This document shows positions 8,981 through 58,564 of a DNA stretch of 64,000 nt, piece by piece. The stretch is from Closterium sp. NIES-65. Lineage: Eukaryota > Streptophyta > Zygnematophyceae > Desmidiales > Closteriaceae. The DNA is taken from NCBI GenBank assembly GCA_948144175.1, contig CANXME010002068.1, positions 1,798,001 to 1,862,000 of the forward strand, read 5' to 3'. The notes below the pieces were generated by a model. It did no database searches. It was not told where the DNA came from and was given only the letters and a program-made list of their open reading frames with translations. The position numbers and the translations under genes were made by a program. The stretch's first letter is position 1; each line of letters begins with the position of its first letter.

Positions 8981-9854
8981 CCTGCGGCCCTACCGCCGCA
9001 CTACATGCGGCCCGTCGCCCTACCCGTCGCGGCCCCGGCCCCGTCCCCGCCTTCCCCCCCCCCTTTTCCCGTCGCCTGTCGAGGCGACCTGAGGGGCGAG
9101 CGGTGGGGTGTCGGGTATGGGGGTGGCCGGTGTGCCTTCCTCCCTTTGCTCCTCCTCCTCCTTCGTCTCCCACTGCTGCAGCTGTCGCTGAGGGGGGTGG
9201 TTGTGTGGGAGACTGGGGTTTAGGGTTTAAGGGGGGTGCGTGGGAGTGGAGCTAGGGGTGTAGCAGCGGGTGTGTATCAGGGGGGTGGGACTGTCTGCGG
9301 GAGGTTGAATGGAGGCTGCCAGCATGTTGTCCGCAGCACCTGTAGTCCGGGGCGTTGTCCCGGTAGCCCAGTGAGCTTGTCGCTGCGCTAGTCGCCTGTG
9401 GGTCCGTTGCCCGTCTGCCGCTACTTAAGCCGCGGGGCCTGTTGCTCCTGTAGTCCGGGCGCTTAGTCCGGTAGCCATTGTGCTCGCCACTCCTGTTGCC
9501 CGTGTGTCTGCAGCTTCAGCCGCCGTCTTCTATCTCCTCTCCTCTCACTCTCCCTCCTCCTCACTTGCCCGTTGTGACTACCACTAGCTTTGCTCATAAT
9601 TGTGAACTCTAAACTATTGCTTCTTGAACTTGTGCTCAGAATGTGTGGTGACATTGTGATCCACCCTGAGCTTGTACTGCTTTTCCTGCTCTGCTGATTA
9701 CACCCCACTTTGGCTATGGGGGTGTGTCAGAATATTATCTTATGCTCTAGCCTGTAGTGGGGTGCTCTATAGCGAGTACAACCCTTCTAGGGTTTTGCTA
9801 TTTGTATCCTCATTCCTGCTAGTTCAATCCCCTTTCTTTCTTCTAATTTTGTTA
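8981..9854 (+). mobile_element. 3' part of an LTR element (D-like), with its 3' LTR, inserted in chromovirus E
   Basis: The internal part 8981-9724 resembles the GC-rich internal part of the element at 12119-13617. It ends in the 3' UTR block GTGGTGACATTGTGATCCACC and polypurine tract CTATGGGGGTG. LTR 9725-9854 follows, then GGGTA (9855-9859), the reverse complement of the TACCC at 57673-57677 beside the sister LTR 57543-57672. The two LTRs are therefore best read as the two ends of one insertion, now about 48 kb apart. Confidence 0.75.
9725..9854 (+). repeat. LTR beside the chromovirus (left copy)
   Basis: 130 bp, TGTCAGAATATT... to the boundary with gypsy sequence. It pairs with 57543-57672, which is in reverse orientation. 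Confidence 0.85.
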
Positions 9855-12118: not shown

Positions 12119-13617
12119 TCTGAAAATTTAGAAGAAAGAAGAGAGGTGCACTAGCAAGAATGAGGATACAAATAGCAAACCCTAGAAGGGTTGTACTCGG
12201 TATAGAGCACCCCACTACAGGCTAGAGCATAATATTCTGACACACCCCCATAGCCAAAGTGGGTTGTAATCAGCAGAGCAAGCAAAGCAGTACAAGCTCA
12301 GGTTGGATCACAATGTCACCACATATTCTGAGCAAAAGTTCAAGAAGCAATAGTTTAAAGTTCACAATTATGAGCAAAGCTAGAGGCTATCGCAGAGGGC
12401 TAGTGTGGAGGAGGAGGGACTATGAGAGGAGAGGAGGTAGTGGGTGGCAGCTGAAGCTGCTGGCACACGGGCAACTGGAGCAACTGGCACACTGGCAACT
12501 GGAGCATCTGGCACACGTGCTACTGGAGTAACTGGCTCCGCGGCTAACAGTAGCGGCAGACGAGCAACGGACTCACGGGCGACTGGAGCAACGGGCTCAC
12601 GGGCGACTGGCGCAACGGGCTCACGGGCGACTGGTGCAACGGTCTCACGGGCGACTGGAGCTGCTGGCTTCTCGGCGGCCACCCCCTTCAACCTCCCCAA
12701 ACTATCCCACCCCCATTTCACACACCCCCTACTGCACCCCTAGGGTCACTCATACCCCACCCCCTAGCACCACTCCGTCGACTCCCACACACCCACCCCC
12801 CTCAGCGGCAGCTGCAGCAGTGGGAGACAGAGGAGGAGGAGGAGCAGGGGAGACCACACACCCGCCACCCCCCACTCGCCACCCCCAAACCCGAACACAG
12901 GGCAGGGCGGGATGGCGGGTAGAGAGGATACGGGGGGGGGGGGGGGGCGGGGCCGACGCGCGGACTCCTTGGGCGCCAAAGCAGGCGGCAGAAGGGGCAA
13001 CGCTCGCCCCTCTCCCCCAGGTCGCGGCCCCCCAAGGAGCCGCGACAGGCGACGGGAAAAGGGGGGGGGGGGGGGGGGGGGGGGCGGTGCACGTGCCCCC
13101 GGTGCGCCGCGGCTGGCGACGAGGCATGGCAGGGGCGGGGCCAGGGCTGCAAGTGGCGGCGACGGATTCTCTGGCGGCGACGACGGGGCCGCTGGCGGCG
13201 GTTCGGGGCCGATATGAGCGGCGACGGGGGGCGACGCGCGGGTCCCCGTCGCCCGTCGCAGCGCCTCCCGGGGGCGACGCGCCGAGTGACGGGGCAGAAA
13301 CCCGTCGCGCGCCTCGGGGCGCACGGCGGGCAGAAAACCGCCGCGCGCCTTGGGGCGCACGGCGGGAAGAAAAACTGCCGCACGCCACGGGGCGTGCGGC
13401 ACAGAGAGTAGCAGTAGCAGTTGCAGCGGAAGCAACGAGGTGGTGAGCCCACCCACAGGATCGATCCAAGGGGATCGACCTGCTCTGATAGCATGTGAAA
13501 ATTTAGAAGAAAGAAGAGAGGTGCACTAGCAAGAATGAGGATACAAATAGTAAATCCTAGAAGGGTTGTACTCGCTATAGAGCACCCCACTACAGGCTAG
13601 AGCATAATATTATGACA
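12119..13617 (-). mobile_element. Non-autonomous LTR retrotransposon D
   Basis: LTRs of 124 bp at 13494-13617 (5') and 12119-12242 (3'). Target duplication CGCAC at 12114-12118 and 13618-13622. Primer-binding site TGCTATCAGAGCAGG at 13479-13493, and polypurine tract CTATGGGGGTG next to the 3' LTR. About five differences between LTRs by eye. The internal part has no gag or pol. It is GC-rich with a 24-G run (13061-13084), a G run near 12932-12947, a three-hairpin array and near the 3' end (about 12460-12670) a roughly 15 bp repeat (GCGACTGGAGCAACG type). Open frames here are repeat artefacts. Confidence 0.92.
13300..13403 (-). other. Array of three hairpins in element D
   Basis: Three consecutive inverted repeats of about 27 nt. 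The most perfect is TGCCGCACGCC/GGCGTGCGGCA near 13376-13402. They are separated by GAAAA-type spacers and lie about 90 nt inside the primer-binding site, the same layout as in elements B and J. Confidence 0.7.
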
Positions 13618-13624
13618 CGCACGA

Positions 13625-20932: not shown

Positions 20933-21060
20933 TGTCAGACTTATATGACTTAGCCTATGTAGGCTATAGTGGGGTAGCACATATGGGATACAACACTTTT
21001 CTAGGGTTTGTACTTGTACCCAACCTTTCCACCAGTCAATCATTCCTCGTAATCTTCACA
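20933..21060 (+). repeat. 5' LTR of element H
   Basis: 128 bp, TGTCAGACTTAT...CTTCACA. Confidence 0.92.
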
Positions 21061-22116: not shown

Positions 22117-25100
22117 ATGGCTACCCCTAGCGTTCTCGTCTTTGATGCTGAGGGTCGGGCTGTTGACTTTGAGGTCTGGGTCCATGATCTGCAGATTTTC
22201 CTACAGTGCGATAGGAAAGACGGTCTCTCGCTGTTCGATCTCACGTCTGGCGCCTCTACTGCCCCTGCTGCCGATGCTGAAAGCACTGTTCGCTCACAGT
22301 GGGCCACACGCGATGCTCCTGCCCGTCTTGCTGTGCGTAGTCACTTGCCGTCCTCAGAGCGCGCGCAATTCAGTCAATACAAGAGTGCTAGGACCTTGTA
22401 CGACGCTGTAGTCGCACGCTACTCTTCCCATGCCACTGCTGCCCTTAGCCGCCTCATGCTACCGTACCTGTTCCCTGACCTCGCCGCCTTTCCCACAGTC
22501 GCTGACCTCATTACGCACCTTCGCACTAGTGAAACCCGCTACCGCGCTGCACTTCCTGCTGAGTTCTGCGCCAAGAACCCCCCCCCCCCCCCCCATGTAC
22601 ATCACCCTCTACTACGTAGTCACCCGGCTCTCTGACTCCCTTCGCTCGGTCAAGGACCACTTCCTCTCTGTTTGCCCCACCACATTCACTGTTGACCTCT
22701 TCGAGGAGCACCTGCTAGCAGTTGAGAAGAGTATAGTCGCTGTAGGAGCCTCTCGTGGTGACCCTCGTGCCCCCTTCTTTGAGGGGTGCTCCCCCTCCCC
22801 CCTTTTGCCCTCTGTTGCTTCTGCTGCTGCCGTCGACTTCGTTGGCACCGAGTCGGTCGGCGCTGTGTCTGCCCCTAGCGGGAGACGCCGCATCGGCAAG
22901 GGCAAGGGGGGCAAGGGCGCTAGAGGGGCTGGCGGGGGCGGTGGAGGTGGCGGTGGAGGCGGCGGAGGGAGTGGGGGTGGCGGTGGGAGTAGTGGCGGGG
23001 GTGGGGGCTTCGGTGGTGGCGGTGGTGGTGGAGGCGGCGGCGGCGGTGGCGGTGGGAGCGGAGGAGGAGGCGGAGGCGGGGGTGGCGGAGGTGGCGACGG
23101 CGGAGGTGGAGCTGGTCGGGGTGGCTCTGCGCAGCGGAGCGGCTTCGGTGGTAGTCAGCGCCAGCAGCAGCAGCGCACTCGTGAGACGCCGCCCCCCCAG
23201 CAGCTTCGTGAGTGGTACGCTGCGCGTCAGCGGGGTGGGGGTGCTGGTCCTTGTGCCTACGTCCTGCGTACCGGCGACCGCACTAGTGAGCCGTGCGGTG
23301 GCCCGCACACCACCCAGCGCTGCTAGGGCCGCCTGACGGATGCTTGGCGTCACCAGTTCCCTGACGCCACTGAGATCCCCCGCTAGGACGAGCTGCTTAG
23401 GTCGGGGGTTGCTATCTTTGATCTGGATTATGATGCTATTCTTGCTGCCATGTATGTTGTGTCTACTAGTGATGAGGGTGACTGTTACCTGTGTGTCCTG
23501 CCTGACCCAGGCATTGACGCTGCTGCTCTAGGTGCTGGTGACGCTGCTGCTCTAGGTGCTAGTGCGTCTGCTGCCCCAGGTGCTTGTGAGTCTGCTCTCT
23601 CAGGTACCACGTCGGCTCAGGCCGTACACACCTTCACCCTTGACTCGGGTACTTCCCGCTCCTTCTTCCGAGACCGCACCACGCTTACGCCGCTTAGTCG
23701 GCCGGTTGCGGTCTCCCTGGCGGACCCCTCTGGGGGTCCTGTCCTTGCCCACTTCTCCACTGTCCTCCCGTGTCCGGCGGCCCCCTCTGGGACCCTGTCA
23801 GGTCTCTACCTCCCCTTGTTCTCTACGAACTTGGCGAGTGGTGCTGATCTACAGGATGGGGGGGTTGACCAGTTCACTCCTGCGAGTCAGCGAGTGACCC
23901 ACTATACGTGTGCGCGGACGGGCCGACACTTGGCCACGTTTACCCGTCAGCCGGGGTCGAGCTTGTACACACTGACTACTGAGTCTTCTCTAGTTGCTGA
24001 GTCTAGTCAGGTAGCTGCGTCGGGTCAGGTGTTTGCTGCAGCGTCCAGGTCTGGTTCAGAGTTTGCTCCCTGCTCGTGTCGTCTCCTGTCCCACCGGACT
24101 CTCCTCTGGCACCACCGCCTTGGTCACCCCTCCCTGCCTCGTCTCCGAGGCATGGCCTCCCGTTACCTTGTTTCTGGTCTCCCCCGGTCCCTCCCTCCCC
24201 TTCCTTCGGGGCCTGCCCCTACTTGCGTTCCCTGCGTCGAGGGGCGGCAGTGCGCCGCTCCTCACTCCTCTGAGTTTCCTCCGACAGAGGCTCCGCTGCA
24301 GACTCTTCACATGGACGTGTGGGGCCCCACCCGCGTCCGTGGCCAGGGTCACGAGCGTTACTTCCTATTGGTGGTTGACGACTAGTCGCGTTACACCACG
24401 GTGTTCCCCTTGCGCAGCAAGGGTGACGTCACTGAGGTTTTTGATCGACTAGATCCGCGCAGCTCGTCTCCAGCTTAGAGAGAGTTTCGGCTCAGACTTT
24501 CCTGTTATGCGTCTGCACTCTAACAGAGGCGGGGAGTTTTCCTCTGGCCTTCTGAGAGCCTTTTGTCGTGCACAGAGCATCCGCCAGACGTTCACGCTTC
24601 CGGCCTCTCCACAGCAAAATGGGATTGCTGAGCGCCGCATTGGCATGGTCATGGACGTCGCTCGTGCATCCATGGTCCATGCGGGTGCTCCCCATTTTCT
24701 GTGGCCCTTTGCGGTTCGGTACGTGGCGCATTAAATCAACCTTCAACCCCGGGTCTCCTTGCCAGAGACCTCCCCCACCTTGCGGTGGACGGGGAAGGTT
24801 GGCGATGCGTCTGCGTTTCGTGTCTGGGGATCTCGGGCGTTTGACCGCGACTTGTCTGCGCACAAGCTGTCCCCCCGTGCTATTCCCTGCGTCTTTCTTG
24901 GCTTACCCCCTGACGCGCCTGGTTGGCAGTTTTACCACCCCACCTTGCGCCGTGTTCTGTCCTCCCAGGACGTCACCTTTGACGAGTCGGTTCCTTACTA
25001 CCGTCTCTTCCCCTACCGCACTGCGCCCCTCCCCCCGCTGCCCCTCTTCCTCGTGCAAGGTCCTCCCCCGGTAGACCCTCTCCCCCCTCAGGGTCCTGCC

Positions 25101-28447: not shown

Positions 28448-28575
28448 TGTCAGACTTATATGACTTAGCCTATGTAGGCTATAGTGGGGTAGCACATATG
28501 GGGTACAACACTTTTCAAGGGTTTGTACTTGTACCCAACCTTTCTACTAGTCAATCATTCCTCGTGATCTTCAGA
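28448..28575 (+). repeat. 3' LTR of element H
   Basis: 128 bp. About 5 percent different from the 5' LTR by eye. Confidence 0.92.
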
Positions 28576-28659
28576 GTCCATTCATTCTCGCCTGCTTATT
28601 TCAACATGGTATTAGAGCAGGATCGTTCCTAGGGCCCACCGAACGTTCCGCCCTGCCCT

Positions 28660-33374: not shown

Positions 33375-34245
33375 GCTCGCAACGAAACGCTCTCCCGTCA
33401 CCCTTCCTCTCTCCCGTCGCGTTCCTCTCTCCTATCACCTTTCCTCTCTCCCGTCGCGTTCCTCTCTCTTTTCGCCCTTCCTCTCTCCCGTCTCGTTCCT
33501 CTCTCTTATCGCCTTTCCTCTCTTCTGTCGCGTTCCTCTCTCTTATGGCCTTTCCTTTCTGCCGCCGACTTTCCACTCTCCCGTCGCCTTCCTCTCTCCC
33601 TTCGCCCTTCCTCTCTCCCGTCGTCCTTCCTCTCTCCCATCGTCTTCCTCTCTCCCGTCGCCTTGCTCTCTCCCCTCCCTTTCCGTCGCCCTCGCTCTCT
33701 GTCAGAATCCCAACCACTAGACCATTGGGATAAAAGGGCTTGTTTCAGTAGTGGGTCAGTGCGCCCATAACCCCCCAGGCGAACGCGCCTGTAACCCTCT
33801 CCAGGATCAATCGGGCATCCACAGTGCAGATCTACTGACACCCCCCCACACAGGGAGGCTCAGGACTAAGCACAACGGCAACGACCTACATGTGCATACA
33901 CCGGGAATCGAACCCGAGTCCGCTCTGATACCATGTCCGAATCCCAACCACTAGACCATTGGGATAAAAGGGCTTGTTTCAGCAGCGGGTCAGTGCGCCA
34001 ATAACCCCCCAGGCGAACGCGCCTGTAACCCTCTCCAGGATCAATCGGGCATCCACAGTGCAGATCTACTGACACTCTCTCCCCTCCCTTTTCGTCGCCC
34101 TCACGTTCTCCTCTCCCTTTTCGTTGCCCTCGCTCTCTCCCCTCCCTTCGCGACGCCCTCGCTATCTCCCCTCCCTTTGCATCGCCCTCGCTCTCTCCCC
34201 TCCCTCTCCGTCGCCCTCACGTTCTCCTCTCATCCCACCAACACC
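33375..34245 (+). repeat. Pyrimidine-rich minisatellite (CTCTCCCGTCGC type)
   Basis: Degenerate units such as TTCCTCTCTCCCGTCGC at about 33375-33699 and CTCTCCCCTCCCTTTCCGTCG at 34075-34245. The TRIM at 33700-34074 splits it. Frames on either strand are low-complexity. Confidence 0.8.
33700..34074 (-). mobile_element. TRIM O: 375 bp miniature LTR element with tRNA-like boxes
   Basis: Two 141 bp direct repeats (33700-33840 and 33934-34074, about four differences) flank a 93 bp middle. Target duplication CTCTC at 33695-33699 and 34075-34079. On the minus strand the primer-binding site TGGTATCAGAGC (33922-33933) is exact, and a G run precedes the second LTR. An A-box-like TGGTCTAGTGG lies at 33948-33958 at the end of the 5' LTR. 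A B box GGTTCGATTCC lies at 33904-33914. No coding capacity. Same family as the element at 49216-49563. Confidence 0.93.
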
Positions 34246-38280: not shown

Positions 38281-38470
38281 GTTTTTCATTCGGCCGCCAT
38301 CGTCGTCGCTGCCGCCACCTGACTTGGTACTTGCCATGTTCTATATCTCCCGTCTTCTACTGGTCTTACTCCACCCTTATTGTGTCCACCGCCTGACCAG
38401 TCGCAGCCACAGTTAAAGCTTTCTCCTCACTGCCTGCTCCTTCTCCTTACACTGAGCAGCGAGACTCTCT

Positions 38471-39298
38471 TGTTTTAGTCACAGTAGGCTCCAATGTGCC
38501 TAAAACGAAAGATAGAGTGCACAGTCGGATTTCTGCACAGCGGCTTCAAACGTTCATAGCGTTTTGGTCACAACATCAAATGACTTGATTCAACTTGGAT
38601 CTGGAGCGTCTTAATCTTGCCTACACTAGGCAATTTAGATCGCACGATTTGACCAAGTATTGACGACACAGCGATGGTTTGAACGAACGGCACTATGGCA
38701 GCAACATAGTCTTAGAACACAAGATAGGAAGAGTTAGGAAGAGTTACGAGTTGGGAATGACTCCCAGCTCCTACAAACCCCAAGAGCCGAGGTACAGTGA
38801 TGTGGAACAGTGCCACACTGTCCCCAACCACGAAGGGTCTCGAAACTACCCTTCACTAGGGCCTACACCAAGTGAAATGTTACACTACACAAAGTAATGT
38901 AACTATCTTCAATATCTTGAGGTGCACCCTTTTGGCTAGCTTCGAAATCACTTGAGGCTTGACACCAAGGCTCGGGCTCTTCATCACAAACTCATCCTTG
39001 AGTTCTTGATGGGTCTTCTACACACACCTGCGACACGCCGAACGTTCGACACAGGACAAAATAGAAACCGCGCACGACAAAATAGAAACCGCGTGCGAGA
39101 CACAAACGACCGCGTAACACGCGTCTAGCGATAACTCGCTATTGACTCGACACACACACTCGACATCATGACTCAACATTCACACACAATTATAAGCATG
39201 AAATATATATTATCCCATGCCCTCATACCATTCCATACACACACACATGCACGCACACGGACAACAAGCCGAGTGCAAACCGTAGGGTTGCACCAACA
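38471..39298 (-). repeat. 3' LTR of element L
   Basis: 828 bp. Contains two direct copies of GACAAAATAGAAACCGCG near 39053-39092. Confidence 0.93.
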
Positions 39299-39339
39299 AA
39301 CTCCTCCTCGGATTGTTGGCCTTAGGATATGTTGCTCTC

Positions 39340-42300
39340 TCAGTTCAGAGCCATCCCACCCAGCTTGCAACACTTCCAATGCTGCTGCTCCACCAGCCTC
39401 TTAGTCATCATGTCAGCCGGCTGCCCCGTGGTCTTCACGTAGCGCAACTCAACTTCACCCGCGGCCACCATGCTCCTCGTCCAATGCCACTTCACCCTCA
39501 TGTGCTTTGTGAGTCCATGCAACATAGGGTTCTTAGCAAGAGCAATGGCACCGTGGCTGTCACAGTAGAGTGGGGTAGGTCCTTGCTGCTCCTCCCCCAA
39601 TTCAGCCAACAAACGCCGCTGCCACACAATCTCTCGTACGGCACGGAAGAGTGCCATGTACTCGGACTCCACCGAGCTCAAAGCTTGGTCAACCTGCTTC
39701 TTGCTCTCCCAAGCAGTTGGGCCTCCACCAACACAGCATATGAAGCCTCCCACACTTGTCATGTCCTCTGATTCCGATGCATATGACGCATCCGAGTAGG
39801 CGGTGAGGAACAAACGCCCGGGTTCAACACCATCCGCGCCCTTTTGGCGCCTTTGTGCCGCCGCCGAGTATTGCAGCCCAACGGTCGGTGTTTGGCCAAG
39901 ATACTTGGCCACCCTCATTCCAGCTGCTACCTGCTCCTCATTAGGGCATTGCACAACCCTAGCCAGCTGCCCAGTAGAAAACGCGACGTCCGGTCGGGTG
40001 TTTACCGCCTCATACATGAGGCTGCCCACCAACGAGTGAAAATGGTGCCTCTCCTCTTCACAAACGCTCTCCTCCTCTGGTCCCTTCACACACTTGAACC
40101 CAGAGGGAAAAGGAGTAGCCACATGACCTTCACTCTGGCCAAAGTTGGCAGCCAACGCCTCCAGGTACTTCTGTTGGTGCACTCGCATGCTCCGCTTCTC
40201 CACGTCTCGTTCGATGTGGAGCCCAAGGTAGAAGTTCACGTCACCAAGGGACTTGCACTTGAACTTGTCATGCAGCTTCAGCATCACCTCCTTCAAAAGG
40301 TCAGAGGAGAGTGAGAATATAAGAATGTCATCCACATAAACCACCATGAAGCTCCTCTGCTCCCCCTCGCCAAGCATGAACAAGGAGTGATCGGCCGTTG
40401 AGGGAGTGAAGCGGTTCCCCTCCAACACTTTGCGCAGCTTCATGTACCATTGCCTAGGGGCCTGCTTCAGCCCATAGAGGGCCTTCTTCAGCTTCCACAC
40501 TCTGCCACTACCATCATCAAACCCCTCTGGTTGCGCCATAAAAATCTCCTCCTCAAGGATGCCGTTAAGGAATGCCGTTACGATGTCCATTTGTTTTACT
40601 ACCCATCCTTTGATGGCGGCTCCCGCGAATAGGGTTCGCAGCATCGTCGGCTTCACCACAGGGGCAAACAGCTCCTTGAAGTCCCCCTTCTCCTTCTGCT
40701 GGTACCCCTTGGCTACAAGCCTAGACTTGTAGCGCTCGATCTTGCCGTCGGCATCCGACTTGATTTTGAAGAGCCACTTGGACGTTATCGCCGTACGCCC
40801 CTCCGGTAGCTCCACCAATTCAAACGTGTCATTCTCCTTGATGCTCTTCAGCTCTCTCTCCATGGCCTTCTTCCACTCCTCAGCATCACTACTCTCCAAA
40901 GCCTCCTTGAGAGTTGCTGGTTCTCCCGGCATCTCCACCGGAGAGAAGAACGCGAAGGCACACTCCTCGTAGTCACTCTCCTCGTCGTCTCCGACCATCA
41001 TTGCCGCTCCGGCCAGGGCTGTCTTGCCCTGCTTTCCCAGCGCATCATAGGTCAGCCTATTAGGGGGTTGAACTCTCCTCTTGCCCCTTCCTTCCTCCTC
41101 AGCTGCAGGGACTTGAAGGCCTTGGCGTTGCTGCGGTGTGGCTCGAATCCGTGGAGCACTCGTAGTACGGGAAGGGAGTGACGGTGCACGCTCGCTCACT
41201 TGCTGCACCTCCTCCCATTCTTCCTCTGCATCATTGGCCTCCTCTCCCCCATTCACAAGGGAGGATTGCCTTGTGGTTGTGCTGCCGCTGCTCAGCTCCA
41301 AAGGCAGCTCCACATGCTCCAAACCGGAACTCTTCACCTCCCCAAACCGCACGCCTATCTTCGCCTCATTCTCCGCCTTCCAATCTTTGTACATGAAGTT
41401 CTCCATGAACTTGCAGTCCCTGCTCACCAAGAACTTCTTGGTGAATGGGTCCCAAAGAAGCCATCCCTTGCTGTTTTGAGCCATGCCCAAGTGCACGGCC
41501 CACACCGCCTTGGCACCAAGCTTGTTGTGCCGAAGATGCTTAGGTACGAGCGCCATACACATGCACCCGAACACCCGAAGCATATCCACCTTTGGCTTCC
41601 TTCCTAGCCACTCCACATAGGGCACCCATTTGTCTGCTCCCACATGATTCAAGGCTCGGTTCTTGGCCACACACGCGCTCCGCACCGCATCAGGCCAGAA
41701 ATAGTCGGGTAGCCTGGCTTCAATGAGCAACCCGCGTGCTGCCTCCGTGATTGTGCGGTTCGCTCGCTCGGCGATGCCGTTCATTGCAGGGGAGTATGGC
41801 ATGGTGAGGGAGTGCCGAATACCATTCTTCTTCAGCCACAACCCAAACTCCTTGCTCAGGAACTCTCCCCCTCGATCGGTGCGGATTGACTTGACTAGAC
41901 GGTCTTGTTGCCGCTCCACCATCGGGAACCAATCCGCCTTCAACGTTTCAGCCACGTCGCTCTTCTTGGCCAGCACGTACACCCAAGTCATACGGGTGTA
42001 GACGTCCACAATAGTGAGGAAGTACTCAGCTCAAGCAGCTCCAAGCTTCAGGGGGCCCACCACGTCCATCACCACCTCATCAAGTGGTGCCTTAGCCGTT
42101 GCCTCCGAACTAGAGAATGGGAAACGGGTGAACTTGGCTTGCATGCACGTCGGGCAGCCAAGTACCTCATCGGGCTCCCCCTTCACACGTATGCCAGCAA
42201 CCATCTCATTCTTTACTAGCTGCTGCAAGATGGGCAGGGCCACATGCCCCATGCGCCGATGCAAGGTGAGCCAATCACACTCCCCCGTAGCCGAAGTTGG

Positions 42301-44035
42301 ATTGGAGAATGCCGCGCTCGCAATAGCGCCCCACATACTCTCTCCGTAGTCCTCCTCCGCTGCTGCCTCGGGGTTCTCCTCACCCTTTTGCTGCTCCTTG
42401 GCTGCTGCACCTCTCTCCATAGGTTCACCAAGGTTGCTGGTCCCTCCAAGATTGCACTTCTTGGACTCCTTCTCCTTAGCGCGACCGTCCGCGCAATCGC
42501 CGCTACCAACCGCTCCACCTTTGGTGCTGACACTTGCTGCCACTTGCCTCTCCTTAGGCATTGGGACCACAGGGATCTGCCACATCTCGTTGTAGACATC
42601 TCTGTCCTCATGAAGGTCCCAAAGAATCCGATCGCCAAGCCTTGCGGTGTAGGTCTTGGCTCCCTTTGAGTTCGTGTCCATGCCGGCCTTTGCCAACCGC
42701 CGCACGGAAATCAGGTTGGCAGCAAGGCTGGGCACCCAAAGCACATTCTTGAGGCCCACCATCTTCCCATCAGCACCCTTAAACATGGCCTTGCCCATGC
42801 CTTTCACCTCCGCCCGCTGCCCCAAAGCTGATGTGACATGCTTCACCGGTGACGGTTCGAGTTCGGTGAGCAAGTCCGGGCGAGGTGTCATGCTATAGGT
42901 AGCGCCACTATCGATCACCCAATAGTCCAGAGGGTATAGAGTCACCTTCCCCACAGCTGCTGGCTCCTCAAAGCCTTCATCCTTCTCTGGACCAGTCGGT
43001 ACTTGCGTCGACACGAAGTAGAATAGACCCGGGTACCGATCGTTGCTCGGGTCCTTGTCGTTGTCTCCGCTCTTCATGTTTGCAGCTCCGCCACCGCGAC
43101 CGCCACGGCCTCCACGGCCTCTTCCTCTCCCTCCTCCTGCTCCTCTACCCTCTTGGCCTTGAGTAGGGGTCCAACCATCAGGGAGTTTGTAGCAGTCGCG
43201 CCACATGTGTCCGCTCTTGTGGCAATAGTGACACTCGCCGTCGAATCGGCCGCGACCGCGTCCGTAGCTCTTGTCGTCGCTGCCGTAACCGCCACTCCCG
43301 CGGCCTCCGCCGAAGTTGCTGCCACCAAACCTTCCTCCCCCTCGTCCTCTACCTCTTCCTCGACCATATCCACGGCCGATGCTCGCTGCCCCAGCGCCAT
43401 CCGCACTCGCCAACTCACGGCGGCAGAAATCCTCTTGAAGGATAGCTCGCTTCACGTCTTCAAGCGAGAGGCGGGGCAAGTCGCGATTAAGGTTGATGAT
43501 GAGCGAGGACCATGACTCAGGGAGTAGGGCCAGCAACTTGGTCTTCTGTTGGAGCTCACTATAGTTCAAATTAGCTCCCTCAAGCCGCGTCAACAAGTCG
43601 AAGAATTTCTGCACCCCTTCTTCAACCGCTTCATCCTCTTCAATTCGCTAGTGTCGCCATTTGCCGTTCCAACACCACAGCTACCGCCGCTGTTGCAGGA
43701 GCGTGTACACCCTTGAGAGCAGCCCATGCCTTTGGTCCCTTCTCTGGTTCACGCTGGAAAGGCTTGATGTGACGGATTTGGCTGCTCCCCAACGCTTGCC
43801 CAAGTAGGAGGTAGCCTTGTGCGCTCTTCCGCACCCACGGGCTCTTCTCCGGGTCGTTCTCGGGACGCTTCTCCGTTCCTTCCATTACCTCCAGCAGGTC
43901 ATAGTGGTCAAATATGTTCTCCATTTTGAAGGACCACTCAGCAAAGTTGTCACCATTGAACTTGTCAAGGCCAAACACTCTAGGCTCATCCCTAGATGGG
44001 CCAACACTTGGTTGCACAGGCGCCATGGCTGAATC
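39340..44035 (-). pseudogene. Element L gag-pol region
   Basis: Gag (about 43000-44035: EPRVFGLDKFNGDNFAEWSFKME) ends in a standard zinc knuckle CHYCHKSGHMWRDC near 43190-43230 between Gly/Arg-rich stretches. Protease WVIDSGATYSM is near 42890-42920. GAG-pre-integrase HRRMGHVALPILQQL lies near 42220, and the integrase core (DVYTRMTWVYVL, DRGGEFLSKEF, SPAMNGIAERANRT) at about 41550-42090. RT (KWLFKIKSDADGKIERYKSRLVAKGY, YVDDILIFS) is at about 40240-40860, and RNase H (YASESEDMTSVGGF, SSVESEYMALFRAVRE) at about 39400-39790. Mostly open, with about two or three breaks. Confidence 0.9.
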
Positions 44036-44144
44036 ACGGGGTTAGCCTTGAGCTTGGGCTTCTCCTCTGCCACCAGCACCTCTGCCACCCCTTTCCTCAG
44101 GTCCAGCCATTGTCGAAACTGCTCCAAGGGGCTCTGATACCACT

Positions 44145-44972
44145 TGTTATAGTCACAGTAGGCTCCAATGTGCCTAAAACGAAAGATAGAGTGCACAGTC
44201 GGATTTCTGCACAGCAGCTTCAAACGTTCATAGCGTTTTGGTCACAACATCAAATGACTTTATTCAACTTGGATCTGGAGCGTCTTATTCTCGCCTACAC
44301 TAGGCAATTTAGATCGCACGATTTGACCAGGTATTGACGACACAGCGTCGGTTTGAACGAACGGCACTATGGCAGCAACATAGTCTTAGAACACAAGATA
44401 GGAAGAGTTAGGAAGAGTTACGAGTTGGGAATGACTCCCAGCTCCTACAAACCCCAAGAGCCGAGGTACAGTGATGTGGAACAGTGCCACACTGTCCCCA
44501 ACCACGAAGGGTCTCGAAACTACCCTTCACTAGGGCCTACACCAAGTGAAATGTTACACTACACAAAGTAATGTAACTATCTTCAATATCTTGAGGTGCA
44601 CCCTTTTGGCTAGCTTCGAAATCACTTGAGGCTTGACACCAAGGCTCGGGCTCTTCATCACAAACTCATCCTTGAGTTCTTGATGGGTCTTCTACACACA
44701 CCTGCGACACGCCGAACGTTCGACACAGGACAAAATAGAAACCGCGCACGACAAAATAGAAACCGCGTGCGAGACACAAACGACCGCGTAACACGCGTCT
44801 AGCGATAACTCGCTATTGACTCGACACACACACTCGACATCATGACTCAACATTCACACACAATTATAAGCATGAAATATATATTATCCCATGCCCTCAT
44901 ACCATTCCATACACACACACATGCACGCATACGGACAACAAGCCGAGTGCAAACCGTAGGGTTGCACCAACA
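44145..44972 (-). repeat. 5' LTR of element L
   Basis: 828 bp, about 1 percent different from the 3' LTR. Confidence 0.93.
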
Positions 44973-46882: not shown

Positions 46883-48179
46883 TCATGTACCCGATGACCT
46901 GCACTCGACCTGACCTTGCGTACCCCCTTAGCATCCTGGCTCGCTATGTTGCGCCTGGGAGACATCGGCGAGAGCACTGGGAGGCTGCTAAGAGGGTGTT
47001 GCGCTACTTGTGCAGTACATCAGGCATGGGGCTTGGAGGCCAGAGTCAAGTTGTCCTAACTGGTCACACAGACACGTCTTGGGCTGACCACCAAGCTACG
47101 CAGCAGTCGTCACAGGGTTACACGTTCAGCCTTGGCTCCAGTTGTGAAGCTGAGATTTACGCAAGAGCCATGGCTGCACACGAGCTACGCTAGCTCACCT
47201 ACCTGCTGACCGACTTGGGAGAGCGGCCTTGTTCTCCTCTAGTTCTGTACATAGACAATAAGGCAGCTATTGCCTTGTGTCAGGAGCACAGAACGAAGCA
47301 CATCGCTCTACGTTACTTCCTTGCTCGAGAGTTGCTGCAGCGTGGTCAGCTTCGTCTTGCTTACATGGCCACTCAGGCCAACACTGCTAATATATTCACC
47401 AAGGCACTTCAGCCTGGTGATCATCAGCGTTTTTGTACTGTTTTGGGCCTTGTGCATACTTTGCCTCACTTGCTCACTTCGTGACTTTGCTTGTACTATG
47501 ATCTTTATACATATACCTGCATGACTGCACTTGCTACGTTATGATCACTGTACTGTTTGTTCTCTTTTATATAACTCTGCATATGAAGTGGCTTTGTTGT
47601 CATTTGCTTGTGCTGAGAATGTGTGGTGACTTCGTGATCCACACTGAGCTTGCTTTGGTTTTCTTGACTGGTCTTGTGACCACTGGTTCTCCCCCACTTT
47701 GCCTATGGGGGTGTGTCAAACTGTTATAATATGTAGGCTGTAGTGGGGCAGCCCATAAGGGGTACAACCCACATTAGGGTTATACTTGTACCAACTTTCC
47801 ACTAGTTTCATTCATTCTCGTTCTATATTCTAACAACCCACACCACTTGTGCTGTATTTTGGTGAATATGCTATTTTTTTCTATCTCGCAGGCGAGGAGG
47901 AACTACCTATGGTTGTCTGAGCTTGCAGGAAACTGTCAAACTCATATGCTATAGTTTGTGTAGGTTGTAGTGGGGTGGACAATATGGGGTACAACACTTT
48001 TAGGTTTTCCTACTTGTACCCACCTGCTTGCTAGTTCATTCATTCCTCATTTCTTCACATGGTATAGAGCAAGTTCCCTAGTGGGAACGCTTCCTAGGGC
48101 CCACCACTGAAAATCAAAAATATTTTTTCTGACCGGAGCGCCACTCGCCCCTGCCCGAGGCGCGCCCCGTGGGCCGCCC

Positions 48180-48700
48180 TCTCGTCGCGTCCCCTGCCCT
48201 TAGCGGCCTCTCGCGCCCTCCTAGAGGCCCCCCTTAGCGAACCCTCGCCACCCCTAGCGGCCCCGTCGCCACCCTTCGCGGCCCCGTCGCCGCCCCTAGC
48301 GGCCCCGTCGCCGCCCTTCGCGGCCCCGTCGCCGCCCCTAGCGGCCCCGTCGCCACCCTTCGCGGCCCCGTCGCTGCCCCTAGCGGCCCCGTCGCCACCC
48401 TTCGCGACCCCGTCGCCGCCTGTTACGGCCCCGTCGCCGTCCTTCGCGGCCCCGTCGCCGCCCTTCAAGGCCCCTCGCGGCCCCTTCGCGGCCCCGGCGC
48501 CGCCCCTAGCGGCCCCGTCGCCGCCCTTCTTGGCCCCATCACCGCCCTTCGCGGCCCCTTCGCGGCCCTGTCGCCGCCTCTAGCGGCCCCGTCGCCGCCC
48601 CTAGCGGCCCCGTCGCCGCCCTTCGCGGCCCCTCGCGGCCTCTTCTCGGCCCCGTCGCCGCCCTTCATGGCCCCGTCGTCACCCTTCGCGGCCCCTCCTC
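48180..48700 (+). repeat. Leader tandem repeat of element M (GCGGCCCCGTCGCCGCCC unit)
   Basis: About 20-24 bp units, for example AGCGGCCCCGTCGCCGCCCT, repeated with small changes. A CAG/CCG-rich part follows to about 48860. Frames on either strand are repeat artefacts. Confidence 0.85.
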
Positions 48701-49215
48701 GGCTCCTCCGCCACCAGCAGCAGACGCCGCCGCCGCCAGCAGCAGCCGACAGCAGCAGACGCCGCCAACAACAGCGGTGGCCACCACCAGCAGCACTCGT
48801 CGCCGCCGACAGCAGCGACTGCCGCCGCCACTGACAGCAGGAGCTGCCGCCGCGGTCGTGGCTCTGTCCCTGCAGACCCGCCTCGGCCCTGCCCCACCGC
48901 TTGCCGACCCCCTACCTACCAGCCCTGGTGAGAGCACTGCCGAGCCACGCCTGCTACTGCTGCCCCTAGCTTGCTGCCACTGCTGTCATGGCTACCCCTA
49001 GTGTTCTAGTCTTTGATGCTGAGGGTCGGGCTGTTGACTTTGAGGTTTGGGTCGATGATCTACAGCTTTTCCTACAGTGCGATAGGAAGGATGGTCTCTC
49101 CCTGTTCGATCTCACGTCTGGCGCCTCTACTACCCCTGCTGCCGATGCTGACAGCACTGTTCGCTCATAGTGGGCCACACGCGATGATGCTGCCCGTCTT
49201 GCTGTGCGTAGTCAC

Positions 49216-49563
49216 TGTCAGAGGTCCACTGGTGATCCCCGATCGATCCTAGGGAAGGGTTACAGGCACATTTGCCTGGGGGGTTATGGGCGCACTGACC
49301 CGCTACTGAAACAAGCCCTTTTATCCCAATGGTCTAGTGGTTGGGATTCTGAGATGGTATCCAGAGCGAAGGTCTCGGGTTCGAATCCCGGTGTATGCAC
49401 TTCGGGCATCCCAGTGCGGGGGGGTGTCAGAGGTCCACTGGTGATCCCCGATCGATCCTAGGGAAGGGTTACAGGCACATTTGCCTGGGGGGTTATGGGC
49501 GCACTGACCCGCTACTGAAACAAGCCCTTTTATCCCAATGGTCTAGTGGTTGGGATTCTGAGA
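49216..49563 (+). mobile_element. TRIM N: 348 bp miniature LTR element, identical LTRs, tRNA-like boxes
   Basis: Two identical 139 bp direct repeats (49216-49354 and 49425-49563) flank only 70 bp. Target duplication GTCAC at 49211-49215 and 49564-49568, confirmed by the uninterrupted gag sequence in element H. Primer-binding site TGGTATCCAGAGC at 49355. A G run (49418-49424) precedes the second LTR as a polypurine tract. A-box-like TGGTCTAGTGG at 49330-49340, B box GGTTCGAATCC at 49378-49388, TTTT at 49319-49322 and 49528-49531. No coding capacity. Very recent by LTR identity. Confidence 0.95.
49330..49388 (+). promoter_or_regulatory. Candidate split Pol III internal promoter in TRIM N
   Basis: The A-box-like TGGTCTAGTGG (49330-49340) fits the tRNA D-arm consensus and resembles tRNA-Glu/Asp D arms. 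It lies in the last 25 bases of the 5' LTR. The B box GGTTCGAATCC (49378-49388) is a perfect T-arm match within the 70 bp middle. Start-to-start spacing is 48 bp, within the range used by Pol III. The primer-binding site lies between the two boxes. Activity is inferred. Confidence 0.6.
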
Positions 49564-52500
49564 GTCACTTGCCGTCCACTGAGCGCGCGCACTTTAATCA
49601 GTACACAAGAGTGCTAAGACCTTGTACGATGCTATAGTTGCACGCTACTCTTCCCCTGCCACTGCTGCCCTTAGCCGCCTCATGCTGCCGTACTTGTTTC
49701 CTGACCTCGCCGCCGTTCCCACTGCCGCTAACCTCGTTACGCACCTTCGCACTAGTGACACCCGCTACTGCGCTGCGCTTCCTGCTGAGTTCTGCGCCGA
49801 GAACCCCCCCCCCCCCCCCCCCCATGTGCATCACCCTCTACTACATAGTCACCCGGCTCCCTGACTCCCTTCGCTCGGTCAAGGCCCACTTCCTCTCTGT
49901 TTGCCCCACCACACACACCGTTGACCTCCTCGAGGAGCGCCTCCTGGCAGCTGAGAAGAGTATAGTCGCTGTAGGAGCCTCTCGTGCTGACCCTCGTGCC
50001 CCCATCTTTTAGGGGTGCTCCCCCTCCCCCCTTTTGCCCTCTGTTGCCTCTGCTGCTGCCGTCGACTTCGTTGGCACCGAGTCGGTCGGCGCTGCGTCTG
50101 CCCCTAGCGGGCGACGCCGCACCGGCAAGGGCAAGGGGGGCAAGGGCACTGGAGGGGCTGGTCGGGGCGGTGGAGGTGGCGGTGGAGGAGGCGGAGGGAG
50201 TGGGGGTGGTGGTGGGAGTGGTGGCGGGGGTGGGGGCTTCGGTGGCGGCGGTGGAGGTGGAGGCGGCGGCGGCGGTGGCGGTGGGAGCGGAGGTGGAGGC
50301 GGTGGCAAAGGTGGCGGCGGAGGAGGTGGAGCTAGTCGGGGTGGCTCTGCGCAGCGGGGCGGCTTCGGTGGTGGTCAGCGCCAGCAACAGCAGCGCACTC
50401 GTGACACCCCGCCCCCCCAGCAGCTTCGTGAGTGGTACTCTGCGCGTCAGCGGGGTGGGGGTGCTGGTCCTTGTGCCTACGTCCTACGTACCGGCGACCG
50501 CACTGGTGAGCCGTGCGGTGGCCCGCACACCACCCAGCACTGCTTCGGCCGTCTGACGGACGCTTGGCGTCTCGAGTTCCCTGACGCCACTGAGATCCCC
50601 CGCTGGGGCGAGCTGCTGAGGTCGGGGGTTGCTGTCTTTGATCTCGATTATGATGCCATTCTTGCTGCCATGTATGATGTGTCTACTAGTGATGAGGGTG
50701 ACTGTTACCTGTGTGTTCCGCCTGACCCGGGCATTGAGGCTGCTGCTCTAGATGCTGGTGGGGCTGCTGCTCTAGGTGCTAGTGCGTCTGCTGCCCCAGG
50801 TGCTGGTGAGTCTGCTCTCTCAGGTACCACGTCGGCTCCGGCCTTACACACCTTCACCCTTAACTCGGGTGCTTCCCGCTCCTTCTTTTGAGACCGCACC
50901 ACGCTTACGCCGCTTAGTCGGCTGGTTGCGGTCTCCCTGGCGGACCCCTCTGGGGGTCCTGTCCTTGCCCCCTTCTCCACTGTCTTACCTTGTCCGGCAG
51001 CCCCCTTTGGCATCCTGTCACGTCTCTACCTCCCCTCGTTCTCTACGAACTTGGTGAGTGGTGCTGATCTACAGGATGGGGGGGTTGACCAGTTCACTCC
51101 TGCGAGTCAGCGGGTGACCCACTGTACGTGTGCTCGGACGGGCCGACACTTGGCCACGTTTACTCGTCAGCCGGGGTCGAGCCTGTACACACTGACTACT
51201 GAGTCTGGTCAGGTAGCTGCGTCGAGTCAGGTGTTTGCTGCAGCGTCCAGGTCTTGTCTTGAGTCTGCTCCTTGCTCGTGTCGTCTCCTCTCCCACCAGA
51301 CTCTCCTTTGGCACCACCGCCTTGGTCACCCTTCCCTGCCTCGTCTCTGAGGCATTGCCTCCCGTGTCCTTGTCTCTGGTCTCCCCTGGTCCCTCCCTCC
51401 CCTCCCTCCGGGGCCTGCCCCTACCTGCGTTCCCTGCGTCGAGGGGCGGCAGCGCGCCGCCCCTCACTCCTCCGAGTTTCCTCTGACACAGGCTCCCCTG
51501 CAAACTCTTCACATGGACCTGTGGGGCCCCGCCCGCGTCCGTGGCCAGGGTCACGAGCGTTACACCACGGTTTTCCCCTTGCGTAGCAAGGGTGACGTCA
51601 CAAAGGTGTTGATCGACTGGATCCCCGCAGCTCGTCTCCAGCTCAGAGAGAGTTTTGGCTCGGACTTTCCTGTTTTGCGTCTCCACTCTGACAGAGGCGG
51701 GGAGTTTTCCTCTTCCCTTCTGGGAGCCTTCTGTCGTGCACAGGGCATCCGCCAGACCTTCACGCTTCCGGCCTCTCCACTGAAAAATGGGATTGCTGAG
51801 CACCGCATTGGCATGGTCATGGACGTCACTCGTACGTCCATGATCCATGCGGTTGCTCCCCATTTTCTGTGGCCGTTTGCGGTTCAGTACGGAGCGCATC
51901 AGATCAACCTTCAGCCCCGGGTCTCTTTGGCAGAGACCTCCCCCACCTTGCGGTGGACGGGGAAGGTTGGCGATGCGTCTGCGTTTCGTGTCTGGGGATC
52001 TCGGGCGTTTGTCCGCGACTTGTCTGCGGACAAGCTGTCCCCCCGTGCGGTTCCCTGCGTCTTCCTTGGCTTCCCCCCTGATGCGCCTAGTTGGCAGTTT
52101 TACCACCCCACTTGACGCTATATTCTGTCCTCCCAGGACGTCACCTTTGACGAGTCGGTTCCTTACTACCGTCTCTTCCCCTGCCGCACTGTGCCCCTCC
52201 CCCCGCCGCCGCTCTTCCTTGCGCCAGGTCCCCCCCCGGTAGACCCCCTCCCCCCTCAGGGTCCTGCCCCGTCAGGTGTGTCCCAGGTAGACGCAGTCGA
52301 GCCTGTCAAGGTAGCTGTTGACTCTAGTACTGCTAGGGGTGCTGAGCCTGGGGGTGCTGAGTCTGGGGGTGCTGGGCTTGGGAGTGCGTAGCCTGGGGGT
52401 ACGGAGCCTGGGGGTGCAGAGCCTTGGTGTGCGGAGCCTGGGGGTACAGAGCCTGGGGGTGCTGAGCCTGGGGGTGCGGAGCCTTGGGGTGCTGGGTCTG

Positions 52501-55500
52501 CTCGTGTGGTCTCTGGTGGTGCTGGGTTTGGGGCCCCTTCGGGTACTTCGTCGAGGCGGGAGCTACCCTCTCCACAGTAGCTACGTGAGTGGTTTGCCCG
52601 GCGTTGGAGCCGTACTGCTGGAGCTGGAGGTGCTGCTGTTGCTGCTGACCCTGGGGTCGGCACTGGGGTTACTGGAGCCACTGGTCGTAGAGGTGCTCGT
52701 AGTGGTGGTACTGGAGCTATTGGGCCTGGGGGTGCTGCTGAGGCTGCTGGAGCTGACGGTCCTGCTGGAGTTGGTGCTGCTGGAGCTGGAGCTGCTGGAG
52801 CTGCAGCTGCTGGGGGTGTTGGCGCTGGAGGTGCTGCTGGCGCTGGTGCTTCATAGGGTGCTGGAGTTGGCGCTGTTGGAGCTGGAGGTGCTACTGGCGC
52901 TGGTGCTGCCGCTGGGGGTACTGGTGCTGTCCCTGTTGGTTCTGGAGGCGCTGCGCGGCTGCGGCCGTACTTCATTCCGCTCCTTGAGCAGGTTCTTGGT
53001 CTCCCGCCCTCTACTTGTCCTGCTCCTCCCTTAGAGTGTCCACAGCCTGTCCAGTCGCGGTCACAGTTACAGCCCGCCTCCCCCCTGCCTGCTCCTTCTC
53101 CATACACTGGTCCTACAGGAGGTCTTGCTGAGCGTCGTGAGCCTGCGTCTCGCCCTGCGTCGCCTGTTCATGCTGCTCGCACTAGTAGTCGTGCTCTGCG
53201 TCCGCGTCCTCCCGCGGTCCCGGGCACACACCAGATGGCGCTGCGTCCTTCCACTGCTCCTCTGCGTGTCCCGTTGCCGTCTCCTCCAGAGTCCTCTCTT
53301 CCTCTCCTTGCTGACCCGGAGTCTGACTCTCTTCGTGCTGCCAGTTCTACTATCACGCGTTTCCTGGCTACTGTTGTCACTGACCCTTCCTTTGAGTCCA
53401 CTGCTGCGTCTGCCTTGGTTGCTGAGCTTGTCGACTTTGCTGCTCGCTGTCGTCTAGACTACGCTGCTAGTCTTGTTGCTGAGTTTGAGTCTGTCTGTCC
53501 TCCGTCCGTCGAGGGTGAGTGTGCTCTTAGCACGGACGTCCTTGAGGACAGGTAGGAGGAGTTCCAGTGCTTTGCTGCTGCTTTGCCTCATCTCGTGTCC
53601 ACGCTGATTGCCCCTGAGGGAGACCCGGATGCACCAGACATCCCGACTCCTCGATCGTACGCTGAGGCGATCGAGGGTCCCTTCTCCTCTCATTGGCGGT
53701 CAGCCATGGACGCAGAGATGGCTTCCTAGAAGTCCACAGGCACCTACGTCGACGAGGTTCCCCCACCTGGGGCGAACATCGTCAGTGGCATGTGGATTTT
53801 CAGGGTGAAGCAGCCGCCAGGTTCTCCGCCTGTCTTCAAGGCGCGTTACGTGGCTCGAGGCTTCAGTCAGCGGCAGGGAGTTGACTACTTTCAGACCTTC
53901 TCTCCCACCCCGAAGATGACCACTCTTCGGGTGCTGCTGCACATAGCCGCTCAACGCGACTACGAGCTTCACTCTCTTGACTTCAGCACAGCTTTCCTGC
54001 AGGGCAGCGTGCACGAGGAGATCTGGCTGCGCCGCCCACCTGGCTTCACTGGGTCGTTTCCCCCTGGTACCCAGTGGAGCCTCCGATGGCCAGTCTACGG
54101 TCTCTGCCAGGCGCCCCGTGAGTGGCACGACACACTGATGACTACACTTGCGGCTCTTGGGTTTGCTCCTTTTACTGCCGACCCGTCGCTGTTCTTCGCA
54201 CCGACACCTCTTTGCCGCCGTTCTACATCCTCGTGTACGTCGACGACTTGGTCTTTGCCACTGCTGACACTGCTGGACTCGCCCACGTGAATTCCGAGCT
54301 GCAGAAGAGACACACGTGCACAGACCTGGGTGAACTGCGCAGCTACCTTAGCTTGCAGATCACCTGGGACAGAGCACAGCACACCATTACCCTGACTCAG
54401 TCACACATGGTGCAGCAGGTCCTTCAGCGCTTCGACTTCACGTACTCCTCGCCTCAGGCCACTCCTCTGTCTACTCGCCACTCGCTCTCAGCTCTGCCTT
54501 CGGATGAGTCCGTAGAGCCGAGTGGCCCGTACCTAGAGCTTGTTGGCTGCCTCATGTACCTGATGACCTGCACACAACCTGACCTTGCATACCCTCTTAG
54601 CATCTTGGCACGCTATGTTGCTCCTGGGAAACATCGACTAGAGCACATGGCTGCAGCGAAGAGGGTGTTGCGCTACTTGTGCAGTACGTCGGGCATGGGG
54701 CTAGTGCTTGGAGGGCAACGTCCAGTGGTCCTCACAGGTCACGCAGACGCTTCTTGGGCTGACGACCAGGCTACGCAGCGGTCGTCACAGGGTTACACCT
54801 TCAGCCTTGGTTCCGGCTCTGTTTCATGGCGGTCTACCCGCTCGTCTTCTATTCTCGGCTCCAGCTGTGAGGCTGAGATCTACGCGGGGGCCATGGCTGC
54901 ACAGGAGCTACGTTGGCTCATCTACCTGCTGACTGACCTAGGAGAGCCGCCTCGTTCTCCTCCAGTTCTGTACGTAGACAACAAGGTCATGCTGGCCTTG
55001 TGTCGGGAGCACAGACTGGAGCACAGAGCGAAGCACATTGCTCTTCGCTACTTCCTTGCTCGTGAGCTGCAGTTGCGTGGTCAGCTGCGCCTTGCTTACG
55101 TGGCCTCTGAGGCCAACACTGCTGATATCTTTACCAAGGCACTTGCGCCTTGTGATCATCAGCGCTTCTGTACGATGCTAGGTCTTGTGCCTACTTGGCC
55201 TCACTTGCTCACTTCTTGACCTTGCTTGTACTGTGATCTTTCTATACCTACACTTGCTTGTTTACCTTTATATATGATCTTGCATGTGAGCTGGCCTTGT
55301 GGCCTTGAACTTGTGCTCGGAATGTGTGGTGACGTTGTGATCCACCCTGAGTTTGCTTTGTTTTGCTTGACTGGTCTTGTGACCTCTTGTTCTCCCCCAC
55401 TTTGCCTATGGGGGTGTGTCAAACTCATATGCTATAGTCTGTGTAGGCTGTAGTTGGGTAGACCATATGGGGTACAGCACTTTTAGGTTCTCCTACTTGT

Positions 55501-57478: not shown

Positions 57479-57542
57479 CGAAAAATCACAGCGGAAGCGT
57501 AGGGCGGGCCCACAGGCCAGGACGTAAGTGGCTCTGATAGCA

Positions 57543-57672
57543 TGACAGAATTAGAAGAAAGAAAGGGGATTCAACTAGCAGGAATGAGGATACAAATAGC
57601 AAAACCCTAGAAGGGTTGTACTCGCTATAGAGCACCCCACTACAGGCTAGAGCATAAGATAATATTCTGACA
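57543..57672 (-). repeat. LTR beside the chromovirus (right copy)
   Basis: 130 bp, nearly identical to 9725-9854 in reverse, followed by TACCC (57673-57677). Confidence 0.88.
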
Positions 57673-58564
57673 TACCCGTACCGGAGCAGCCATGGCAGGT
57701 CGTTAGCCTCAACTTCATCACACGACTTCCTTCGACCTCACGGGGACATGATTCCATCCTCGTGGTGATCGATGAGTTCTCCAAAATGGGTCACTTCATA
57801 CCGACCAACGCCACAGCTACAGCTGAAGCAACTGCTCGCCTCTTCTTCGACCGCATCATCACCATCCACGGCATCCCCGCTACACTCATCTCAGACAGAG
57901 ACCCAAAATTCACGAGTAAGTTCTGGAAGGAGCTCATGGGACTGTTGGGGACAAAGCTTGCAATGTCTTCAGCATACCACCCCCAGACTGACGGACAGAC
58001 AGAGCGACTCAATCAAGTGGTTGAACAGTTACTGCGCACAGCTTGCAAGGACGACGTCAGCCACTGGGACACACAGTTACCGACCCTAGAGTTTGCTTAC
58101 AACAATGCATCACATGCGGCCACAGGGAAAACTCCTTTCTTCCTGTGTTACGGACAAGAACCACTCACACCACAGCAGCCAACCACACCGGCACACGTCC
58201 AAGCCGCACATGACTTCGTCACCACCATGCAGCAGCTATGGGAAAAGACTCAGCGACGACTCACCACGATGCAGACCTCCTAGAAGCAGTATGCCGATCG
58301 TCAGCGACGTGATCACTCAGTAGCAGTCGGAGATCAGGTGCTTCTTGACACGCGCAACTTGAACCTGTCTCACCTCCCACCCAAACTCCAGCCTCGCTTC
58401 TGTGGTCCTTTTCTCGTAGAGGCACAGGTGACACCAGTTACATTCCGCTTGCGCTTACCTACTACTTGGAAGCTTCACAATGCTTTCCATGTGCAACTAC
58501 TGAAACCCTTCAAGGACCCCAACCAACAGTTCCAGGGACGGCAGCTACCGCCACCTCCACCTGT

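Follow-up and report, generated by a model that had tools for sequence, protein, structure and literature searches.

The window (the whole 64-kb stretch of DNA that was analysed) contains a 348-bp element with two 139-nt LTRs that are 100% identical, separated by a 70-bp middle region (49355–49424) and flanked by a 5-bp GTCAC duplication, an anatomy that the first-pass annotation had described and that the sequence bears out. Its reading of the two promoter-like motifs also stood: an A box lies at the end of the LTR and a B box just past the primer-binding site (PBS), 48 nt apart. The element is short, with two LTRs, a PBS and a polypurine tract (PPT) and without a coding region, and thus qualifies as a TRIM. 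Its features are as follows.

49211–49215, plus strand: left target-site duplication GTCAC (single GTCAC at an empty site near 22340)
49216–49354, plus strand: LTR 1, TGTCAG...CTGAGA, 139 nt, 100% identity with LTR 2
49281–49295, plus strand: U3 stretch GGGTTATGGGCGCAC, complementary at 14 of 15 positions to the tRNA-iMet anticodon arm (LTR 2 copy at 49490–49504)
49313–49322, plus strand: predicted RNA start and R, AAGCCCTTTT (LTR 2 copy at 49522–49531, ending in the predicted terminator TTTT)
49323–49347, plus strand: 7-bp stem ATCCCAA/TTGGGAT of a hairpin whose loop is the A box, pairing across copies
49330–49340, plus strand: A box TGGTCTAGTGG, within the LTR, consensus in 110 of 120 copies
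49355–49367, plus strand: PBS, directly after LTR 1
49375–49391, plus strand: T-arm-like stem-loop in the middle region, containing the B box GGTTCGAATCC (49378–49388)
49418–49424, plus strand: PPT GGGGGGG, adjoining LTR 2
49425–49563, plus strand: LTR 2, identical to LTR 1
49564–49568, plus strand: right target-site duplication GTCAC, same letters as the left flank

The insertion interrupts a Ty1/copia-like element, and the empty site is paralogous sequence at ~22.3 kb in the window. We read the interrupted part of the host element as its gag region; frames downstream of the TRIM matched RVT_2 (108.3 and 37.8 bits) and SH3_retrovirus, all over the cut-off, and rve below it. The copia-like sequence also contains 21-bp and 15-bp tandem repeats at 48167–48750 and 52303–52542, and a long C run lies in its coding region at ~49805–49824.

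A second, diverged member of the same family is present on the opposite strand.

33700–34074, minus strand: 375-nt family member, the longest unit kind, with LTRs TGTCAG...CTGACA, an A box, B box GGTTCGATTCC and flanks GAGAG
33922–33933, minus strand: its PBS, TGGTATCAGAGC

This LTR end (CTGACA) and PBS characterise the wider family, whereas the subfamily of the 49216 element has LTRs ending in CTGAGA, a PBS with one more C and A and B boxes spaced 48 nt apart. The assembly searched comprised 874 Mb in 2,400 contigs. A DNA search, in which 40 of 923 first-look candidates were scored, listed 87 matches, and 31 of these (counting the window copy) covered the full length of the query with 100% identity. 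The LTR/PBS junction of the subfamily gave 672 matches at ≤ 3 mismatches, the wider-family junction (CTGACA plus the canonical PBS) gave 10,963 and a 29-nt LTR core gave 10,645, each with 0 in the control, and these junction and core counts take in tandem units and possibly duplicated haplotypes. The commonest unit lengths were ~209 (the subfamily of the 49216 element), 208 and 234–235. The search and alignment of LTR copies that the first-pass annotation had proposed as a check thus returned thousands of junctions and a comparison of 120 copies, and the TRIM family is large and, because so many of the listed matches were full length and identical to the query, recently active.

To gauge chance occurrence of the two boxes, the 209-nt unit was treated as a circle and shuffled 20,000 times with its dinucleotide composition kept. 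An A box was found in 1,039 shuffles and a B box in 19; none contained an A box followed by a B box 20–80 nt on. Conservation was assessed in copies drawn from 134 junction windows, of which 122 matched the family U3; two (L064 and L069) were left out as their downstream sequence was not TRIM, giving 120. The A-box consensus was present in 110, the B-box consensus in 108 and TTTT in 111 of these, counts that are not independent since the copies have common ancestry; in 23 non-redundant diverged copies the corresponding numbers were 18, 17 and 20. Other copies lacking the boxes, or their spacing, had been named as grounds for rejecting a split promoter. On the boxes the split promoter withstood this test, as they were kept, but the spacing took three values, being 48 nt in 49, 47 nt in 13 and 44 nt in 38 of the 100 copies with both boxes. 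Spacing tracked middle-region type in all but one copy: of the 38 with the 44-nt form, 37 had the longer middle and 1 had the shorter. A regular expression for A box, PBS and B box gave 127 matches in 353,264 bases, all from this one TRIM family, and 0 in the reversed sequence, although the sample was centred on the family and so says little on others.

The mean pairwise difference among the 23 non-redundant copies was 0.043 for the A box, 0.051 for AAGCCCTTTT, 0.081 for the B box and 0.070 for the PBS, compared to 0.200 for U3 positions 1–58, 0.180 for the spacer between PBS and B box and 0.191 for the tail. U3 positions 59–80 (0.054) were the least variable part of U3. Since this stretch and the PBS are as conserved as the boxes, conservation is not limited to the promoter, and the conserved block may act in part in priming or packaging. 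Each of the seven pairs of the hairpin around the A box was formed in 115–120 of the 120 copies, with changes on both sides at pair 114/126 in 7 copies and at pair 112/128 in 1.

The segment carrying the boxes resembles part of a tRNA. By our reading, the LTR end and the PBS occupy the place of the anticodon arm, and the 44-nt form keeps the tRNA register from positions 8 to 65, with the T-arm after the PBS; in this form TCTGA CATGGTA TCAGA can make a 5-bp stem with a 7-nt loop. In the young subfamily the additional PBS C, together with a C-to-G substitution where the LTR ends, could form another hairpin, TCTG-A-GAT-GGT-ATC-CAGA. An acceptor stem is absent from the segment. The Rfam tRNA model scored 15.3 bits (E 2.3) on the 49216 element, under its 29-bit cut-off, and was unlisted in the Rfam scans of the second window element and of copy L063, in both of which only tmRNA models matched, and then just the T-arm (9.7–11.1 bits, far under cut-off); we therefore regard descent of the promoter segment from a tRNA as probable. 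ARAGORN predicted no tRNA gene in the window, and permissive runs gave implausible folds only. Weak matches to an Rfam family of plastid ycf2 5′UTRs on the opposite strand (15.5–17.8 bits, cut-off 65.7) were taken as chance. The predicted fold of the whole element was no more stable than that of shuffled sequence (z = −0.47; 67 of 200 shuffles folded as well or better).

Possible RNA ends were located relative to the A box. Plant tRNA genes often start at a CAA just upstream (PMC11700998, in the part available to us). In the 49216 element the distance from the A of a CAA to the A box downstream is 17 nt, and a TTTT starts six nt after that A; from these positions the RNA is predicted to be ~219 nt with an R of ~10 nt. 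The only runs of at least four T in the element are at 49319–49322 and 49528–49531, so that both window elements have one such run per unit, at the predicted RNA end. Exactly one run occurred in 6,008 of 20,000 shuffles and none in 13,531; a single run per unit is therefore common by chance, and its position is what matters. With TTTT just past the predicted start, Pol III would need to transcribe beyond this first run and then terminate at the second, 209 nt later. The CAA is not strict, certain copies having TTAAAAAG or TTAATAAG, and the A-rich run before AGCCC varies in certain copies, which might fit a U3/R junction, slippage in the A run being an equally good explanation. The earlier suggestion of an RNA with almost no terminal redundancy, in which TTTT adjoins the start, gains support from the position and conservation of these motifs.

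tRNA-iMet is the presumed primer, judging from sequence complementarity. Of six tRNA-iMet loci retrieved from the assembly, four read ATCAGAG...CTCTGAT, one ends in CTCTGAC and one is apparently degraded, and the wider-family PBS matches the 3′ end plus CCA of the four at 12 of 12 positions. We also found a complementarity of U3 to the anticodon arm of tRNA-iMet that is new to this analysis. For the TRIM at 49216 and its sister in the window, 2 and 7 of 1000 shuffles reached the antisense score (3–33 of 2000 over the tested variants), whereas the scores of six other LTRs in the window were ordinary (131–930 of 1000 shuffles). The exact 15-mer is present in 110 of the 120 copies. An anticodon-arm pattern had 508 matches in the assembly (control 9), of which 100 were listed; 28 of those listed were exact, and 58 of the 67 listed with two mismatches were the antisense of LTR positions 61–80, with one G fewer than in the LTR of the 49216 element. 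Four of the listed matches (C10, C84, C105 and C1358) lay at LTR positions 61–80 of family copies. A further U3 hairpin, CAGGCA/TGCCTG, spans LTR positions 48–63 (49263–49278); among the 120 copies its innermost pair was A-T 63 times and G-C 35 times.

Exact 5-bp duplications flanked 69 of the 106 LTR–middle–LTR units examined; the remaining 37 matched imperfectly (3 of them at four letters out of five), had unmatched flanks or were internal to arrays. Nine tandem arrays had matching outer 5 bp (L015, L032, L033, L036, L041, L047, L053, L075 and L083), and in four of these (L032, L033, L036 and L041) unit lengths and LTR types were mixed inside one duplication. Such mixed arrays are better explained by units joined before insertion than by later unequal exchange, and gene conversion is a possible source. 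Tandem TRIMs are known, including L3I2-type arrays flanked by one duplication (PMC4717578), and tandem LTR elements have been interpreted as single insertions (PMC11899658), as stated in the portions of both papers available to us. In another, diverged family member (L114) a copia-type LTR and PBS break up the middle region, probably through nested insertion.

These observations led us to regard the element as, most probably, a non-autonomous TRIM transcribed by Pol III from a type-2 promoter that spans the junction of the 5′ LTR and the middle region. The binding sites for TFIIIC would be the A box, where LTR 1 ends, and the B box, a little past the PBS. Pol III would begin at the CAA near 49312–49314, ~17 nt ahead of the A box, and stop at TTTT in LTR 2 (49528–49531), giving an RNA of ~219 nt with the same ~10 nt, R, at both ends. 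Particle, reverse transcriptase and integrase would all come from a Ty1/copia helper. Priming by tRNA-iMet at the PBS, in the anticodon-arm position of the tRNA-like segment, would yield a minus-strand strong-stop DNA of ~42 nt that is transferred through the short R, and the helper integrase would then produce the 5-bp duplications. With no B box, solo LTRs and LTR 2 by itself should be silent.

It is unlikely that the element is instead a Pol II-transcribed TRIM whose 5′ leader is kept for binding the primer tRNA and the helper Gag and whose boxes, rather than forming the promoter, are relics or imitate a tRNA for packaging. Conservation of the PBS and of the A-box hairpin, with its changes on both sides, would be expected of features acting in RNA, U3 59–80 is equally conserved although it lies beyond the boxes, and known TRIMs, except for Cassandra, Helenus and Ajax, are taken to be Pol II-transcribed (PMC10853983 and PMC10886601, in the parts available to us). 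However, priming leaves the conservation of a B box past the PBS unexplained, the T run falls exactly at the end predicted from the A box, and none of five tested TATA-like and poly(A)-signal strings (AATAAA, ATTAAA, TATAA, TATAAA and TATATA) was present in either window element. The constant 5-bp duplications (69 of 106 units, and the outer ends of nine arrays), the PBS and PPT at the LTR edges, the TG...CA ends of the wider family and a boundary without a 3′ tail make it very improbable that a tRNA-derived, SINE-like retroposon acquired the look of LTRs from tandem units, despite its Pol III boxes, a unit of ~210–235 nt and the arrays. A retrozyme, with an RNA cut by a hammerhead and circularised, would share the size, the gene-less structure with PBS and PPT and the tandem units; it is scarcely credible here, as Rfam scans returned no ribozyme family at cut-off in the window, or at E 5 over the element and its sister.

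Compatible with Pol III transcription is a further proposal, possible rather than likely, in which tRNA-iMet bridges the RNA, with its 3′ end on the 5′ PBS and its anticodon arm on U3 close to the 3′ end of the RNA, which would ease reverse transcription. The 14 of 15 pairing and its rarity in shuffles, the ordinary scores of the six other LTRs, the low variability of U3 59–80 relative to 1–58, the persistence of the 15-mer across copies and the precedent of Ty3 (PMC4974528, in the part available to us) all speak for it, but the significance is modest for a G-rich LTR, the iMet arm has to unfold, the stretch is absent from the short-LTR candidate helpers and the U3 letters could have another role. 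Combining both ideas, the priming site would itself be the anticodon arm of a tRNA-like promoter, and one ~60-nt segment would serve as a TFIIIC site in DNA and as the tRNA-iMet primer site in the ~219-nt RNA, which pairing of the iMet anticodon arm with U3 would circularise; we put this forward as speculation that we doubt more than we believe. Held in a circle by tRNA-iMet, the RNA would need an R of only ~10 nt for strand transfer. If true, promoter, terminator, primer site and end-joining would be united in one unit, a near-minimal retrotransposon genome. The Pol III reading itself, if right, would show how few bases (~219 nt) the RNA of an LTR retrotransposon needs, and nature would have put the lower limit of a usable R to the test. 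It also predicts silence of solo LTRs and of the 3′ LTR, because the promoter forms only at the LTR/middle junction, unlike the prediction for a promoter wholly within the LTR.

The closest known elements are Helenus, TRIMs with tRNA-like LTRs (class TRIMp3) that comprise one plant family and copia-linked fungal families (Kojima 2024, PMC10886601). As in the present family, Helenus combines tRNA-type A and B boxes with a PBS and a PPT, has 5-bp duplications in fungi and in the single plant case, and forms tandem arrays in one family, and a copia helper was inferred for its fungal members (PMC10886601). Helenus elements are 311–1263 bp long (cf. 348 bp here), and the plant member Helenus-1_SMo has an LTR of 120 and a middle of 85 (PMC10886601). 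The tRNA-like sequence of Helenus lies inside the LTR, so that each LTR has a whole promoter (PMC10886601), whereas the present family has the A box alone in the LTR, the B box in the middle region and the PBS between the two. Cassandra is likewise a plant TRIM with a Pol III promoter, a Met-tRNA PBS and tandem arrays, but its promoter is that of 5S rRNA, at about mid-LTR (PMC10853983, in the part available to us), rather than of tRNA type. Rfam scans of the window and of the element returned no 5S rRNA match.

Ty3 is autonomous and Pol II-transcribed, and it pairs other tRNA arms than the TRIM would. The likeness lies in its bipartite PBS, with tRNA-iMet complementarity at both RNA ends (PMC4974528, in the part available to us). 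The arrays of tandemly arrayed TRIMs (Gao 2016) are similar to those seen here, and the terms 'polymerase III', 'Pol III' and 'tRNA' gave no match in a text search of that paper's main text (PMC4717578). The first-pass annotation was unaware of any TRIM with a tRNA-type promoter overlapping the priming site. As a statement on tRNA-type promoters in TRIMs this was too strong, because Helenus and the TRIMp3 class had been published in 2024 (PMC10886601). In our literature search, no description came up of a promoter that is cut in two at the edge of the LTR and encloses the PBS. The family is a real, recently active, Helenus-like TRIM family for which we infer Pol III use, and the putative promoter, divided by the LTR edge and containing the priming site, is its unmatched feature in the literature we read.

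Candidate helpers are present in the window itself.

12121–13618, 9740–9852, 57531–57677, 20933–21058 and 28448–28607: short LTRs beginning TGTCAGA, candidate copia helpers

These elements share with the TRIM the LTR start TGTCAG, closely similar PBSs (such as TGCTATCAGAGC or TGGTATTAGAGC in certain elements) and a G-rich PPT. The LTR pair 20933/28448 brackets copia-like sequence, and we take the short-LTR group to be copias. Composite loci also joined the two kinds of element: L112 has, in order, a copia-type LTR, the TRIM middle, a TRIM LTR and a copia-type PBS and middle; L106 has another copia-type LTR, the TRIM middle and a TRIM LTR, without a duplication; and in L069 a TRIM LTR is followed by a copia-type PBS. 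L106 and L112 came from 20 junctions picked mostly for having no exact LTR core listed beside them, so that the frequency of composite loci among them is not representative. Such loci fit template exchange in shared particles, with later DNA recombination as the alternative. A TRIM LTR joined to a copia-type middle had 4 matches, 2 of them exact and apparently one locus twice. The converse junction, a copia-type PPT with a TRIM LTR, had 2,451 matches at ≤ 3 mismatches, but the 100 listed differed from the TRIM start by 2–3 letters and were read as starts of copia-type LTRs. The window also contains, on the minus strand at 38469–44972, an LTR retrotransposon with 830-bp LTRs that are 98.9% identical, an apparent AGAGA duplication and the PBS TGGTATCAGAGC at 44131–44142.
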